The notes under the pieces are model-generated. The model did not search any database, was not told where the DNA came from, and saw only the letters and a list, made by a program, of their open reading frames with translations. A DNA stretch of 64,000 nucleotides. It comes from Herpetosiphon geysericola. GTDB lineage: Bacteria > Chloroflexota > Chloroflexia > Chloroflexales > Herpetosiphonaceae. Numbering within the stretch: position 1 is the first letter of the stretch; each line of letters starts with the position of its first letter. The DNA lies in NCBI RefSeq assembly GCF_001306135.1, contig NZ_LGKP01000025.1:496001-560000 (forward strand), read 5' to 3'. The position numbers and the translations under genes are program-made. Below, in pieces: positions 8,221 through 58,608 of this stretch.

Positions 8221-8679
8221 ATGTCAGCCAACCCAACCACCGAATGGCGTTTCAAAATCTTGGTCGCTGGCCTTGTGATCATGTTTATGTTTGCAGGTTT
8301 GAGCCAAGCCAGCGGTAAAAGTGGCCCTATCGAAGGTGTCTATCCTGCGCCAATAACTGCGCCAATTGCCTTTGTTACGCGCACACCGAAGCCAACCCTT
8401 TTGCCAATTACCCGTACACCGAAGCCAACGCCGCGCAGTCCCTATCCAACGCCAATCGTAACCCGCACGCCAGAAGCAACCCGCACCGCAACCCGCACGC
8501 CAGAAGCAACGCGCACAGCAACCCGCACGCCATTGGCAACCCGCACGCCAGAAGCGACACGGACAGCAACCCGCACGCCATTGGCAACCCGCACCGCAAC
8601 GCCAACCCGTGTGCCAGAACCAACTCGCACGCCGACCCGTGTGCCAGAACCAACGCGCACGCCTGCTCCTACACCTTAG
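8221..8679 (+). CDS. Thr/Pro/Arg-rich repeat surface protein
   Basis: 152 residues. The N-terminus has a signal peptide or anchor (FKILVAGLVIMFMFAGLSQA). From about residue 50 to the end it is a low-complexity tail built from variants of TRTPEATRTA, TRTPLA and TRVPEP units. At DNA level these are near-perfect short tandem repeats (ACCCGCACGCCAGAAGCAAC-like) that could expand or contract by slippage. Such Thr/Pro-rich tails are typical of extended, often glycosylated, wall or surface stalks. No folded domain is attached, so the exported protein would be almost entirely disordered. AAGGAG precedes the ATG at 8221. Function unknown. Confidence 0.65.
   Translation: MSANPTTEWRFKILVAGLVIMFMFAGLSQASGKSGPIEGVYPAPITAPIAFVTRTPKPTLLPITRTPKPTPRSPYPTPIVTRTPEATRTATRTPEATRTATRTPLATRTPEATRTATRTPLATRTATPTRVPEPTRTPTRVPEPTRTPAPTP
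8460..8675 (+). repeat. Short tandem repeats coding TRTPxAT units
   Basis: Irregular tandem repeats in units of about 24-30 bases inside the Thr/Pro-rich gene, built from CCGCACGCCAGAAGCAAC and CCGCACGCCATTGGCAAC variants. In-frame unit gain or loss would leave the reading frame intact. Confidence 0.7.
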
Positions 8680-8697: not shown

Positions 8698-8721
8698 AGG
8701 GCGATCAATCGTGATCGCCCT
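8698..8721. terminator. Convergent-gene terminator
   Basis: A perfect 10-bp stem (AGGGCGATCA / TGATCGCCCT) with loop ATCG lies between the plus-strand repeat gene and the minus-strand CARF-like gene. It could serve both. Confidence 0.65.
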
Positions 8722-8736
8722 GTTGCATATCTTTGC

Positions 8737-9693
8737 TTATATAGTTGATTGATCAAGCCAAGTTTTGGAATCTTCATCAAAATTAGGATCATCATAAAGA
8801 CTCGGCATATGGCAGTCAATAATAAGATTATCCATTTGTTCTAAAAAATCTAAGCCTTCACGTGTAATGCTGTTAATATCTGTTTGACGATCTCGATTTG
8901 TATATCCTTGTCCATAAATTTTAGTCATATGTACTTGTGTAAACGATCTTAAGTCGAGGTTATCATTAAAATTTTTATATCTCGAATATAAATCATTTGT
9001 TGTTAGTGGATTTTCTTTTAATAATTCTAATATTTTATATACATTAATTTGATCTATAGATGTTTGTATAAATGGAAATACATTGAAATAACTATCAATG
9101 TTAGGATTCATTGCTATAGCATTCGGAACATTAATGAATTTCTCGTATTCTTTACCTTGAGTAATAATATACTGTTTACTTGATTTATTTGTAAGTTGAG
9201 CCATTGACATTAATGCTAAGTTTATTACATTTGCTCCTCCAGTAAGATTACACCAAATTTCTTTACCTTGTCGATTAGGAGCTGAAAAATGATATGTAAC
9301 TCGTATAACCCGTTGGAGACATTCTTGGAAATTATTGATATTTAGCTTACACCAATATACTTTACGTTTTTCCTTAGGATCAAAACTTTTCCATATTTTT
9401 ACTAATGCTTGTTCAATCTCAGTGCGAACATCACAAGGCGACGCATTGCCGATATAGTCAAATGCAGCCAATTTGCGTTCAACGACTTCGGGGCTGGAAA
9501 ACAAAACTAATGCTTCAATAGAGCCTGCGTTTTTTTCTGAATGATTAATCCCACCACTATTTTTTAATAAACGTTGGATTGATTCTGGTGGATTGGGTTT
9601 GGTGCTCATTTGCAGAGCTTTTTCAATATAATCAACTGCACAGGTTACTGCTCCAACCGAACGTCCCACGCCCATAAAATGATAAACACCCAT
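8737..9693 (-). CDS. Orphan CARF-like domain protein with C-terminal wHTH
   Basis: 318 residues. The N-terminus (FMGVGRSVGAVTCAVDY) resembles the first nucleotide-binding loop of CARF domains. Residues 149-162 (NLTGGANVINLALM) match the second conserved CARF motif, of the N-x-TGG-type seen in Csx1/Csm6-like proteins. Residues about 217-288 look like a winged helix-turn-helix (KILELLKENPLTTNDLY ... ITREGLDFLEQM). CARF domains bind cyclic oligoadenylates made by type III CRISPR complexes; CARF-wHTH proteins such as Csa3 are transcription regulators. No HEPN or other nuclease motif is seen. It is separated by only 33 bases from dnaE on the same strand, with GGAGG before the start. Most of the gene is strikingly AT-rich compared with its neighbours, suggesting transfer. 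No cas gene or array is in the window. Confidence 0.6.
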   Translation of the reverse strand: MGVYHFMGVGRSVGAVTCAVDYIEKALQMSTKPNPPESIQRLLKNSGGINHSEKNAGSIEALVLFSSPEVVERKLAAFDYIGNASPCDVRTEIEQALVKIWKSFDPKEKRKVYWCKLNINNFQECLQRVIRVTYHFSAPNRQGKEIWCNLTGGANVINLALMSMAQLTNKSSKQYIITQGKEYEKFINVPNAIAMNPNIDSYFNVFPFIQTSIDQINVYKILELLKENPLTTNDLYSRYKNFNDNLDLRSFTQVHMTKIYGQGYTNRDRQTDINSITREGLDFLEQMDNLIIDCHMPSLYDDPNFDEDSKTWLDQSTI

Positions 9694-9726
9694 TCAATCC
9701 TCCAAACCAATGTAATTGCTTGGTTT

Positions 9727-12700
9727 TTAAAGTTGTTCGAGGACGGCGCTCTCTTGGCCAAGCATTGAGTAGAGGTTGCTGAGCAAGCCCTCTTGTGGGT
9801 TGATCCGATAGCTTGGTTCTAACATCACTTGGCCCATGGGGTTGGGCAGATAGATCGTAATAGGCTGATCGCCCTCGTAGCCACGCAACACCCGATCGAT
9901 CTCTTGCATGCGCCGTATATCGGTTTCGTTGTTGCCTGATCGCGGCAAATAGATGTGCAAATGGAAGCGTGGCCCGCTGGCAATCGCAACGCTACTCGTA
10001 TCTTCATGGCTGGCTGCTGGCGCGACGCTTACTTTGCGCCGAGGCCGTGGCACAATTGTAACCGCCGCTGAAGCTGCGGCTTCACTTTGGCTATTACCGT
10101 TGCCATTACCGTTGCCATTGGCATAATGACCATTGCTATTACTGTGTCCATTGCCGTTCGTGTGTCCATTGCTGGCAGCATAGCCATTGCCATTGGTCGG
10201 TGCAGAAACGCTTGCAGTGCTCATCGCTGGACGTACCTCAACATAGACATCATCATTGAAGGCTTCCTCTGGCAGTGGTGCGCCATCATCAAGATAGGCG
10301 GGCAGTTCGTCGATTGCGCTAACTGAGCGTCGAACTGCTACGCTTGGTGTAGCTGGCTTGCTGGCACTTTTTTGCTCAACATTGAAGGCACTCACCGATT
10401 CAATCATCAATTGGATTTCGTCGCGGCGATTATCGACTTTGGCAGTAATTTGCACAATTGCATCATCAACCAAGAATTCAGTATATTGCTCCAAGGTGCG
10501 GGGGAAGGCCACAAATTCGATTTCACCTTCTAAATCCTCGACCTTGCCCACCATCATTGAATCGCCTTTTTTGGTTTGAATGCGCTTGGTATTGTTGATC
10601 ATCCCAATCAAACGTATCGCTGTGCCAATGTGTTTTTTACCGATCATGCCAAGGCTGATGCGGCCAGGATCGGGCGGCGCATTCTCCAAGGCTTGGGCCA
10701 TTGGATGCTCAGAAATATACATGCCCAAGAGTTCTTTTTCCCAGTTGAGCAATTCGCGCTGCATTTCGAGTCCGCCGCTAATCGGCGGAAAAGGAATTGG
10801 CGCAATGGTTGGGGTGATCGATTGTTCGCCGCCGCCAAGCATATCAAAGAGGCTATTTTGGCCTGCTTCACGGGCTTTTTGGGTTTCATGGCCAGCACTA
10901 ATCGCCCGATCAAGAATCGCAAGTTTCTGGTGGCGCGTGCCCGGCAACGAATCCATTGCCCCACATTTGATCAAACTTTCCATTACTCGCTTGTTGAGCA
11001 CCCCGCGATCAACCCGCGCACAAAAATCTTCGATGCTGCTGAAGGGGCCGCTTTCATCGCGCACTTTCAAAATTGCTTGAATTGGGCCAATCCCAACGTT
11101 GCGAATTGCACTTAGCCCAAAGCGAATCCCACGATTGTATTTGATGCCCTCCGGCAAGGTTCCATTGATTTCAACAATCGTAAAACCTTCTTTGCTGCTG
11201 TTGACATCGGGCGGCGAGACGGCCACGCCCAAGCGCGAGGCTTCGGCAACGCTCTTGGCAACTTCGTCGATTTCGCCAGAAGCTGCCGAAAGGGTGGCGG
11301 TCATATATTCGGTTGGATAATTATTTTTGAGCCAAGCAGTCTGATACGACAGCAAGCCATACAGCGTCGAGTGCGGACGGTTGAACGAATAGCCAGCGAA
11401 TGGCAGAATCAGTTCCCACAATTCGTCTGCTTGAGCTTGGGTCAATCCTTTGCGAATACAACCCTCTTTGAAACGCACCGAGTTTTCGGCCATCAACTCT
11501 TTGTTCTTCTTACTGATGGCTTTGATCACAATATAGGCTTCACCAAGCGTATATTCGGCAACTGCCTGGAGCAATTGCATAATTTGTTCTTGATAAACGA
11601 TAACCCCATAGGTATCCTCAAGAATTGGCTTGAGAATTGGGTGAATATATTTGATCGCGTGGGGATTATTTTTGTTGTGAATATACACTGGAATTTGTTC
11701 CAGCGGGCCTGGCCGATACAGCGCCACCATACCGTACAAATCATCAACCCGCGTTGGCTTGAGTTGCACTAGGTAACGAGTCATGCCCGCCGATTCGAGC
11801 TGGAACACATCGACCGTTTCGCCACGGCCCAAGGCCTCGAAAGTTTTCTTATCTTCCAGCGGAATATCCGAGAGCCACATGGTTTTGCCAGTGGTTTGCT
11901 CGATCAGTTGCAAGGCTTCGGCGGCCACCGAAAGGTTGGTCAAGCCCAAAATATCCATTTTGAGCAAGCCCATTTTGGCGAGGGTTGGCCCTTCAAAAGC
12001 AGCCATCACGCCATGTTCGTCTTTGGTGGTGCGTTGCAAGGGCACCATATTTTCAAGCGGATGGCGACTAACGACGACCCCACAGGCATGGGTGCCGACA
12101 CTCTTCATCCGGCCCTCAACCTTTTGCGCCCAATCCATCAACTCGCGCAATTTGGGGTCGGTATCATAAATTTGCTTGAGTTCAGGCACTTTATCGAGCG
12201 ATTTGGCAATCGTCATGCCCACGGGCAAGGTTGGGATTAATTTAGCAACCCGATCGACCTCGCTCAGTGGAATATCGAGTACGCGGCCCATATCGCGCAG
12301 CGCTGCTTTGGCGCCCAGCGTACCATAAGTGATAATTTGGGCCACATTCTCGCGGCCATATTTGGTCGCAATATAATCGAGAATCTCGCCCCGCCGCGCA
12401 TCGGCAAAGTCGGTGTCAATATCGGGCATTTCCAAGCGTTCGGGCGAGAGAAAGCGCTCGAATAGCAGCTTGTTTTGTACCGGATCAACGTCGGTAATGC
12501 CCAAACAGTAGAGAACCAACGACGCGCCAGCAGAACCCCGTGGCAGACAGGGAATCCCATTCGAGCGGGCAAATTTGACATAATCCCAAACGATCAACAT
12601 ATAATCGGGAAAGCCCGTTTGGTTGATCACGTCAAGCTCGTAGCTCAGCCGTTGCACATATTCTTCACTGGGATTGCCATTGCAACGTTTGATCAAGCCT

Positions 12701-13632
12701 TCTTCGCAAATCAGGCGCAAATAGGAAGCAGCATCGTGACCCTCGGGAATATCAAACTCGGGCAACTCGACCCGCCCAAAATCCAATTTCAAATTGCACA
12801 TATCGGCGATGCGGCGAGTGTTTTCCATTGGCGCAGTGCCATAAATCTTATAGCGATCCCACATTTCGTCGCCAGACATAATGTGGTAGGTTTCATCCAT
12901 TTGATAATTTTTCGAGCACAACTCTTGCAGCGTGAGGTTAAAGCCCATCGCCATCACCCGTGAGTGGGCTTCAAGGTCTTCGCGGCGCACAAAGTGGGTG
13001 TCGTTGGTTGCAACCAATGGCACATGCATCTCGTTGGCGATGCGCACCAGTTCCTCGTTAATTTCCACCAACTCAGGGGTATTATTGTGCAGTTGCAATT
13101 CGATGAAATAATTTTCAGGCCCAAATAAATCGCGGAACCAAGCCACTGTTTCAACAGCTTTTTGACGTTGCTTCGATTGGACGTTTTGAATAACTTCGCC
13201 AGCGATACACGACGAGGTAACGATTAACCCTTCATGATATTGTTCAAGCAACTGGCGATCGATGCGTGGGCGAGCGAAAATACCTTTACCCATGCCATCG
13301 AGATGCGAGCGCGAGGTCAATTTCACCAAATTGCGATAGCCAACCTCATTTTGGGCGATTAGCAGCAGGTGATAATAATTTTTACCGCCCTTCACCATCG
13401 GATCTTTATTCGAGTTGGGGGCGATATAAGCTTCCATGCCAATAATTGGCTTGACGTTGGCTTTTTTGGCGTTGGCATAAAACTCCATCGCGCCATACAT
13501 CACGCCGTGGTCGGTTATGGCGATGCTATCCATCTGAAGTTCAGCGGCACGTTCGGCGATGGCTTTGGTTGTGGCATAACCATCAAGCAAGCTATACTCC
13601 GAGTGAACGTGAAGATGGACAAAATCTTTCAT
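9727..13632 (-). CDS. dnaE: DNA polymerase III alpha subunit
   Basis: 1301 residues, the replicative polymerase catalytic subunit. The PHP domain opens the protein (HLHVHSEYSLLDG, then ITDHGVMYG). The polymerase active-site motif PDIDTDF is at residues 403-409, preceded by LPRGSAGASL. The helix-hairpin-helix region, the OB-fold (around IRLIGMINNTKRI) and a C-terminal tail follow. Between the OB fold and the tail there is a low-complexity spacer of repeated Asn-Gly (about residues 1160-1195) not present in typical DnaE, probably a flexible linker. The end (FHLHIYLPRSGNNETD...) is a small domain common in Chloroflexota/cyanobacterial-type DnaE. Its promoter region holds DnaA-box-like sequences. 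The CARF-like gene follows 33 bases downstream. Confidence 0.97.
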   Translation of the reverse strand: MKDFVHLHVHSEYSLLDGYATTKAIAERAAELQMDSIAITDHGVMYGAMEFYANAKKANVKPIIGMEAYIAPNSNKDPMVKGGKNYYHLLLIAQNEVGYRNLVKLTSRSHLDGMGKGIFARPRIDRQLLEQYHEGLIVTSSCIAGEVIQNVQSKQRQKAVETVAWFRDLFGPENYFIELQLHNNTPELVEINEELVRIANEMHVPLVATNDTHFVRREDLEAHSRVMAMGFNLTLQELCSKNYQMDETYHIMSGDEMWDRYKIYGTAPMENTRRIADMCNLKLDFGRVELPEFDIPEGHDAASYLRLICEEGLIKRCNGNPSEEYVQRLSYELDVINQTGFPDYMLIVWDYVKFARSNGIPCLPRGSAGASLVLYCLGITDVDPVQNKLLFERFLSPERLEMPDIDTDFADARRGEILDYIATKYGRENVAQIITYGTLGAKAALRDMGRVLDIPLSEVDRVAKLIPTLPVGMTIAKSLDKVPELKQIYDTDPKLRELMDWAQKVEGRMKSVGTHACGVVVSRHPLENMVPLQRTTKDEHGVMAAFEGPTLAKMGLLKMDILGLTNLSVAAEALQLIEQTTGKTMWLSDIPLEDKKTFEALGRGETVDVFQLESAGMTRYLVQLKPTRVDDLYGMVALYRPGPLEQIPVYIHNKNNPHAIKYIHPILKPILEDTYGVIVYQEQIMQLLQAVAEYTLGEAYIVIKAISKKNKELMAENSVRFKEGCIRKGLTQAQADELWELILPFAGYSFNRPHSTLYGLLSYQTAWLKNNYPTEYMTATLSAASGEIDEVAKSVAEASRLGVAVSPPDVNSSKEGFTIVEINGTLPEGIKYNRGIRFGLSAIRNVGIGPIQAILKVRDESGPFSSIEDFCARVDRGVLNKRVMESLIKCGAMDSLPGTRHQKLAILDRAISAGHETQKAREAGQNSLFDMLGGGEQSITPTIAPIPFPPISGGLEMQRELLNWEKELLGMYISEHPMAQALENAPPDPGRISLGMIGKKHIGTAIRLIGMINNTKRIQTKKGDSMMVGKVEDLEGEIEFVAFPRTLEQYTEFLVDDAIVQITAKVDNRRDEIQLMIESVSAFNVEQKSASKPATPSVAVRRSVSAIDELPAYLDDGAPLPEEAFNDDVYVEVRPAMSTASVSAPTNGNGYAASNGHTNGNGHSNSNGHYANGNGNGNGNSQSEAAASAAVTIVPRPRRKVSVAPAASHEDTSSVAIASGPRFHLHIYLPRSGNNETDIRRMQEIDRVLRGYEGDQPITIYLPNPMGQVMLEPSYRINPQEGLLSNLYSMLGQESAVLEQL

Positions 13633-23282: not shown

Positions 23283-24047
23283 CTAGCCTTGGAAAATATG
23301 CTGATTGTGGTAGCGCAAAAAGGCTGGATCAGGCTGAAACCGCGCAGGCAGTTTGATCTGCCGTTGATCGTAGGCCAATAATAGATCGTTTGTAGCCGAA
23401 TTAGCTGAGGATTTGATGAGGGTTGCGGCGACCTGAATGCGATAGTCAGGAGTAATGGTGATCAAACCGCGATCAAAAGCTCGATCGTGTAATGCATTTA
23501 AGCAAAGTCCATTGTGCGGATTAACTCGTTGCTCAGCAGCATGTGCCCAGGGCACAATGTGGCTCGTATTCAGCAAACTAGGAATATTTAAGCCAGTAAT
23601 GCAACAACGCTGATCATAGGCAGCGAGGACTATTTTACGGAAAAAGTGCTGATTCATGCGCACACGACGAAGTTGCGCACGCTCTAAACCTTCAATAATT
23701 GGCAACTCAAATAAACTTGTTGCAGGCGCTATTGTTTCTGGCTGCAAGCTTGCCAACAATTGTTCACTTTCCAAGGCCAAGGCTTCCCAATTATTATAGA
23801 ACTCATTCCACACCAGCTCATCAGCTTTACTTCCATGGCTTGAACCAGTAATTCCACGTTGTTGTTCTTTGGGATCAAGGCTGGCGAAATTTCCTAGTTT
23901 GCGTGCAACTGCTCCTGGAGTACGCCCAATCAGCTGTGCTAGCTCGATAATTTGGGGATTTTTGGCATGCATCTTACCAAAGGGGATTTGGTAATAAAGA
24001 TTGAGCACAATGATCAACTCATCACGCTGCCAAAGATTTTGGCTCAT
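23283..24047 (-). CDS. HNH endonuclease domain protein
   Basis: 254 residues. The C-terminal half has the HNH core: CCITGLN, then NTSHIVPWA (first His), NPHNGLCLNALHDRAFD (Asn and second His). This is the McrA/HNH type nuclease fold that coordinates zinc or magnesium. The N-terminal half has a helix-turn-helix-like segment (IIELAQLIGRTPGAVARKLG), probably for DNA recognition. Such genes are often solitary restriction or defence nucleases, and some are modification-dependent. No methyltransferase partner of restriction type is adjacent; the SAM enzyme downstream is of the small-molecule type. The ribosome binding site is weak. Function as a nuclease is inferred from motifs. Confidence 0.85.
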   Translation of the reverse strand: MSQNLWQRDELIIVLNLYYQIPFGKMHAKNPQIIELAQLIGRTPGAVARKLGNFASLDPKEQQRGITGSSHGSKADELVWNEFYNNWEALALESEQLLASLQPETIAPATSLFELPIIEGLERAQLRRVRMNQHFFRKIVLAAYDQRCCITGLNIPSLLNTSHIVPWAHAAEQRVNPHNGLCLNALHDRAFDRGLITITPDYRIQVAATLIKSSANSATNDLLLAYDQRQIKLPARFQPDPAFLRYHNQHIFQG

Positions 24048-58511: not shown

Positions 58512-58608
58512 GGGAGTACATGGGGTCTGGTGGCCTCGTCAGTCTTCAAAATTGGTCGGCGTTATGACGAATAACGTTGGTGTGTTCGATTCGCACGTAC
58601 TCCCGCCA
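58512..58608 (+). tRNA. selC: tRNA-Sec (selC, anticodon TCA)
   Basis: 97 nt with encoded CCA. It has the bacterial selenocysteine architecture: an 8-bp acceptor (GGGAGTAC / GTACTCCC), 5-bp T stem (GTGTG / CGCAC) with loop TTCGATT, a 6-bp D stem (GGGGTC / GGCCTC with wobble) and a minimal 4-base D loop TGGT. The anticodon loop is CTTCAAA, giving TCA that reads UGA. The variable arm is long and paired (CGTTAT / ATAACG core). G is the discriminator base. This is the 8/5 form of bacterial tRNA-Sec. selA, selB and selD are not in the window. Confidence 0.93.

Follow-up and report, generated by a model that had tools for sequence, protein, structure and literature searches.

A CARF and winged-helix gene behind dnaE

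The window, that is, the whole 64-kb stretch of DNA analysed here, lies on contig C1 of a genome of 6.14 Mb in 46 contigs. On the reverse strand, the open reading frame at 8737-9693 is intact and encodes a product of 318 amino acids, with a CARF domain followed by a winged helix. The features of the locus, in window coordinates, are:

8737..9693 (-): CARF-winged-helix gene; 318 codons, ATG start; CARF at about residues 1-200, winged helix at about residues 205-296
9643..9672 (-): CARF motif I; residues 8-17, GVGRSVGAVT
9211..9249 (-): CARF motif II; residues 149-161, NLTGGANVINLAL
8806..9081 (-): winged-helix domain; residues 205-296, from an AlphaFold2 model
9694..9726 (-): intergenic gap, from the stop of dnaE to the start of the CARF gene; 33 bp, with a GGAGGA ribosome-binding-like stretch
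9727..13632 (-): dnaE, DNA polymerase III alpha subunit; directly upstream of the CARF gene
8698..8721 (-): terminator-like hairpin 3' of the CARF gene; AGGGCGATC..GATCGCCCT

The two motifs had been taken in the preliminary description for both loops of a CARF domain, and their positions agree with the profile matches of the protein: residues 1-192 match the PADLOC family CARF3--CARF (PDLC01864, E 3.9e-22) and residues 1-180 the Csx1 profile (E 1.5e-14). The match to the Pfam Card1 CARF family is sub-threshold (0.0058), no NCBIfam family was matched, and PDB sequence searches with the CARF protein, including phmmer, returned nothing relevant. Gly10, Ser12, Gly14, Gly152, Gly153, and Asn155 are invariant in 12/12 rows of alignment A4, and in alignment A1 the Rhizonema row carries Ala at residue 12 and Val at residue 152. 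Asn155 is present in 13/13 homologues, at a position where other CARF proteins carry Lys; judged from the alignment, this replacement could mean that ligand binding is altered or lost. With hhalign, the motif-II loop aligns with other CARF proteins, at low probabilities (36 and 4.9), and the full-length AlphaFold2 model, built from three sequences, has a mean pLDDT of 39. Overall, the protein is a probable sensor of alarm molecules from type III CRISPR immunity.

The winged helix reported earlier at the C-terminus is supported by modelling and structure searches. Residues 200-318, modelled alone with AlphaFold2 (pLDDT 74.5, pTM 0.62), are predicted to form, in order, a helix, a short strand, two further helices, two wing strands, and a last helix; with model residue 1 equal to protein residue 200, the helices span 6-28, 33-40, 49-63, and 79-95, and the wing strands 66-69 and 74-77. 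MarR/PadR-type regulators made up almost all of the best 50 Foldseek rows for this model (best E 5.1e-3; E < 0.001 in none of the 50), and VIA-align likewise returned PadR and MarR regulators, with a best Z of 12.1 and an rmsd of 2.4 over 94 residues. Pfam matches in this region are sub-threshold, both for the Cdc6_C winged helix (0.03 in the window protein, range 0.03 to 0.19) and for HTH_20 (3/10 members, best 0.12).

To describe the protein as a regulator, as was done initially, is less well supported: the net charge of its winged helix is -4, against -1 to +5 in 12 MarR-type domains of the same genome taken as controls (stretches of 72-93 residues, 3/12 below the family cut-off). Over 12 homologues the net charge of the winged helix ranges from 0 to -6, and that of helix 3 plus wing from -5 to +1. 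The homologue and control ranges touch at -1 to 0, and 4/12 homologues (at -1 or 0) fall inside the control range, such that the acidic character would make DNA binding only mildly less likely.

Elsewhere in the window, the absence of a CRISPR array noted at first agrees with a direct-repeat scan of the 64 kb, which at the settings used showed only coding repeats in a neighbouring ORF. PADLOC matched 10 families at E 1e-5 or better among 49 other ORFs (the longest without mutual overlap, minimum 120 aa), and 0 of the 10 were Cas, CARF, or HEPN families, again in line with the first description. Its statement that no nuclease occurs in the 64 kb is incorrect: ORF 23283-24047 (-) matches the PADLOC HNH profile (E 2.1e-94) and a type II restriction enzyme profile (8.7e-44). 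The same ORF shares 36% identity over 133 residues with an HNH protein beside a Cmr operon on contig C23 (L014:12306-13274). Further single window ORFs match the defence families DolB (1.5e-31), PDC-M37B (1.8e-33), mad2 (1.1e-13) and mad8 (4.7e-9) of MADS, SduA (8.3e-8), PD-T4-6 (1.4e-7), and PDC-M60B (3.5e-6), some of which may be housekeeping relatives. The window also holds a selenocysteine tRNA gene at 58512-58608 (+), on which ARAGORN and Rfam concur.

The dnaE site and the homologues

A scan of the dnaE-CARF gap in the window shows no terminator-like site, and the two genes probably form one transcription unit. Within the genus, the CARF gene is present in 3/6 genomes (the window genome, G078, and G274), always after dnaE at a gap of 32-33 bp, and in all 3 carriers it sits, with an open frame, between dnaE and a terminator-like hairpin. 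The site is empty in the 3 non-carriers, which have a hairpin with a GCGATC..GATCGC core no more than ~30 bp beyond dnaE; in the carriers, a hairpin with a similar core follows the CARF gene instead. Compared with the empty site, the insert amounts to ~1 kb and is essentially the CARF gene alone. Next to the hairpin, a convergent ORF at window positions 8221-8679 (+) encodes a hydrophobic N-terminal segment and then a Thr-Arg-Thr-Pro-Glu-Ala-type repeat tail, and related repeat-rich ORFs occupy the same place in G034, G102, G078, and G274, with a match at the DNA level in G043.

Substitution rates were compared between neighbouring genes. For the window and G078, dS is 0.722 in dnaE and 0.664 in the CARF gene, for which dN is 0.047 and dN/dS ~0.07; these values fit common descent of the two copies at the dnaE site under purifying selection. 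A recent insertion in the window and G078 was considered and rejected because CARF dS is close to dnaE dS. Between G078 and G274, dnaE dS is 0.362 and CARF dS 1.42, the latter near saturation, from which it follows that G274 carries a different allele, one that probably arose by replacement. Divergent alleles at one site are a common pattern in defence genes.

Homologues are sparse in the sampled genomes. The search designated P0001 matched 9/400 genomes of the phylum, and alignment searches matched 6/158 genomes in the class, 4/388 in the order of Rhizonema (one being a fragment that was dropped), 2/386 in its phylum, and 1/392 in the phylum of a planctomycete; a scan of named genomes gave two loci. 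At most five candidates were scored per genome in the Rhizonema order and phylum and the planctomycete phylum, and homologues may thus have been missed there. The 72-residue fragment from G589 (three stops, E 4.5e-4) was excluded from every count, leaving 13 distinct sequences. Searches of plasmids, phages, and viral contigs yielded no relative (one of them gave 11 pattern matches, 0 confirmed), so that a virus or plasmid origin is unsupported.

The window protein is 25-32% identical to its type III-linked homologues. Of the 13 sequences, 9 belong to type III loci or neighbour other CARF effectors, and 7 of these 9 are accompanied by type III core genes, namely Cas10 at L020-L023, L070, and L071 and Cmr4 at L025. 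At the remaining two loci, L018 and L019, the homologues adjoin CARF7-RelE and CARF5 proteins close to contig ends, with no Cas match among the few further neighbours scanned; at L022, a type I-B Cas8b also adjoins the CARF gene. The cyanobacterial type III locus L071 additionally encodes a 166-aa CARF1-only protein next to the CARF3 gene (L071:7935-8435; PADLOC CARF1--CARF, E 5.4e-50). The other 4 sequences (window, G078, G274, and Rhizonema L024), around which no cas gene is visible, group together as a single clade, with support of 98/99 and presence in 98% of 200 bootstrap trees; its neighbour in the tree, G170 (L023), was flagged as a long branch. The CARF3--CARF profile is matched both by the G078 copy and by the type III-linked copy at L023. 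The Rhizonema copy contains in-frame stops and lies with genes for PdxJ and a rubrerythrin-domain protein on a contig of just 6.9 kb, which gives it a short gene context, in a genome with five Cas10 matches.

Type III systems in the genome and genus

Searching the genome for Cas10, part of the check outlined with the preliminary description, located three Cas10 palm matches on contigs C44, C23, and C2, all distinct from that of the window; PADLOC confirmed all three, and each has GGDD. At C44, a Cmr operon is accompanied by genes for a CARF-HEPN protein and Csx15. The C2 locus comprises a Csm operon, two CARF-HEPN proteins, Cas6, Cas1, and then 11 array repeats in the stretch fetched. A search of the genome with PF22205 (Csm6_6H) gave 0 matches despite the two CARF-HEPN genes at C2, for which reason this negative means little. 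At C23, a Cmr operon is flanked by six scanned ORFs, of which one matched HNH, one the HTH part of Csa3 profiles, and four nothing, and none gave a CARF or SAVED match. Names of csm and cmr subunits are from inspection and blast unless PADLOC named them.

Cas10 was found in 6/6 genus genomes, including all 3 carriers of the CARF gene. Surroundings were fetched for all 14 Cas10 matches below E 1e-20 and for 2 of 12 weaker ones; given this coverage of the weaker matches, further loci may exist. Among these surroundings, the second, C23-type Cmr locus turned up in the window genome (G000), G078, G102, and G043, but in neither G274 nor G034. It thus occurs in 2/3 carriers and 2/3 non-carriers, and the idea that the CARF gene accompanies this locus was rejected on these counts; presence of the gene in 3/6 genomes tracks neither Cas10 nor the second Cmr locus. 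Nor is that locus free of effectors throughout the genus, for in G043 a 1033-aa protein encoded beside cas10 (L084:3654-6755) matches SAVED_TIR at E 1.8e-21 over residues 762-1027, with two neighbours scanned in G102 and a G078 stretch that starts at a contig end. A type III-D-like operon occurs in G102 (L091:6447-14658; Cas10d, Cas5, and Cas7 III-D by PADLOC) and another in G274 (L092:6974-8647, Cas10d by PADLOC), with no III-D-type Cas10 among the matches listed for the window's own genome. In addition, csm5 is separated from the first CARF-HEPN gene by an extra ORF of ~270 aa in 2/5 genus Csm loci (L086:13219-14022 and L089:13587-14417).

Proposed sensing in trans, its alternatives, and known systems

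We tentatively favour, at somewhat short of even chances, the reading that this stand-alone CARF-winged-helix protein acts in trans as a sensor of cyclic oligoadenylates produced by the three unlinked type III complexes. Since the protein is assigned to CARF and its sister group is linked to type III loci, the likely ligand would be a cyclic oligoadenylate. The CARF gene would close the dnaE transcription unit and would probably be expressed constitutively; an infection would lead any one of the three Cas10 proteins to make the messenger, which the CARF dimer would bind between its two conserved loops, and a ligand-induced change would be passed to the paired winged helices. The output, a weak step of this scheme, would most likely be transcriptional, as proposed for Csa3. 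The CARF and winged-helix assignments, the GGDD-bearing Cas10 proteins, the association of the sister group with type III, and purifying selection were obtained by computation, and it is from these that we infer ligand, dimerisation, co-transcription, DNA binding, and targets. An answer to a distant CRISPR locus, one option raised in the preliminary description, is accordingly the best supported of those it offered, through the three Cas10 proteins and the 9 homologues in type III or CARF-effector surroundings. The C23 Cmr operon, with no CARF or SAVED match in the six ORFs scanned, also fits this reading. Against it stand the winged helix, acidic to neutral in 12/12 aligned homologues and lower in charge than most of the 12 MarR-type controls; Asn at the motif-II Lys position, which bears on ligand binding itself; the presence of the gene in the genus, which tracks neither Cas10 nor the second Cmr locus; and the SAVED protein at that second locus in G043.

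Two alternatives we regard as unlikely though worth serious consideration. The protein could be a ring nuclease built like the CARF protein Sso1393, destroying cyclic oligoadenylates and so switching the type III response off. Its domain order is that of Sso1393, a cA4-cleaving protein with the wHTH at its C-terminus according to the excerpt of PMC10018336; G10-R11-S12 of motif I resembles the Gly-Thr-Ser of Sso2081, with Ser in 12/12 rows of alignment A4; and the protein has no room for an enzymatic third domain. However, motif II contains neither Arg nor Lys in 12/12 of these rows, and the C44 Cmr locus already has Csx15, a ring nuclease family per the extract of PMC13148439. In the portion of PMC8699464 drawn on here, Csa3a, lacking the putative catalytic lysine, binds cA4 and shows no cA4 degradation; together with Gly-Ala-Asn in motif II, this tips the balance slightly from a ring nuclease towards a sensor. 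Alternatively, and with similarly low likelihood, the protein may bind the messenger and not DNA, either buffering cyclic oligoadenylates or signalling to a partner protein via its acidic winged helix. This would suit the charges of the winged helix and of helix 3 plus wing across the homologues, as well as the relatives that adjoin other CARF proteins (L018, L019, L021, and L071, and by blast L020 and L022). Yet the winged helix resembles the MarR/PadR DNA-binding families, charge alone is not decisive, and the charges of the MarR controls meet those of the homologues.

A CARF protein that has departed from CRISPR signalling for cellular control, for instance of replication given the dnaE unit, seems improbable. 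Adoption for cellular control had been raised at the outset, and the dnaE neighbourhood, with the gene enclosed between dnaE and the hairpin in 3/3 genus carriers, is the only point in its favour. The motif-II lysine is indeed missing, but type III-linked relatives lack it equally; CRISPR-Cas-unlinked CARF genes occur in each CARF family, as stated in the excerpt of PMC4012209, but here 3/6 genus genomes lack the gene and all have dnaE, the G274 allele is divergent, and Cas10 is found in all 3 carriers. More speculative still, and to be considered a long shot, is a clade of CARF proteins with an Asn pocket that became uncoupled from type III loci and was long kept in the dnaE unit, where its dose would follow dnaE expression and it might link phage sensing, or another messenger, to replication, or else to several unlinked type III systems. 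That the gene is a decaying, now functionless remnant of a type III locus since lost is very improbable and is disfavoured by the substitution pattern: although the Rhizonema copy has in-frame stops and the gene is missing from 3/6 genus genomes, the frame is open in 3/3 genus carriers, and dN/dS between the window and G078 points to constraint.

If the protein is indeed a cyclic oligoadenylate sensor, the genome would offer a case of natural signalling between unlinked loci, with three Cas10 systems and one solitary receptor at a housekeeping locus, and would show the role of a nuclease-free CARF protein with Asn in the ligand pocket; genus members with the empty site constitute natural controls. 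Searches of an open-access library found no paper on a CARF domain in Herpetosiphon, nor one on dnaE with CARF and type III CRISPR.

Among known systems, Csa3 is similar in having a CARF domain followed by a MarR-like winged helix without a catalytic third domain or catalytic lysine, as given in extracts of PMC8699464 and PMC8844856. The profile match to Csa3 is nonetheless weak (PDLC01044, E 0.018; Pfam Csa3_N in 1/11 members, 0.008), and Csa3 accompanies type I-A systems (PMC4012209, in excerpt), whereas the window gene has no such linkage, has a dnaE neighbourhood in 3/3 genus carriers with no Cas among the 49 window ORFs, and encodes an acidic winged helix. The Crn1 ring nucleases Sso1393 and Sso2081 provide a second comparison, drawn from the excerpted PMC10018336: Sso1393 is a CARF-wHTH ring nuclease, a build shared with the window protein, and the Sso2081 motifs are Gly-Thr-Ser and Gly-Arg-Lys. 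Gly-x-Ser is common to motif I, in which Gly-Arg-Ser of the window protein keeps Ser and not Thr; in motif II, Gly-Ala-Asn departs from Gly-Arg-Lys, with Asn in 12/12 rows. Methanosarcina mazei MM_0565 is, by description, also of the CARF-wHTH build, and according to the extract of PMC7465815 it binds to CRISPR leaders, and overexpressing it increases transcription of cas1-solo; it differs in being associated with a type I-B locus. Members of PADLOC CARF3--CARF share their profile with the window gene, which, unlike the type III-linked members, lies outside any CRISPR locus. On statistical grounds, it has been proposed that type III loci share effectors (PMC11229360, in part), and with this and unlinked CARF genes already in print, the kind of protein is known. 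What is unusual is just its solitary placement behind dnaE and its long retention there.
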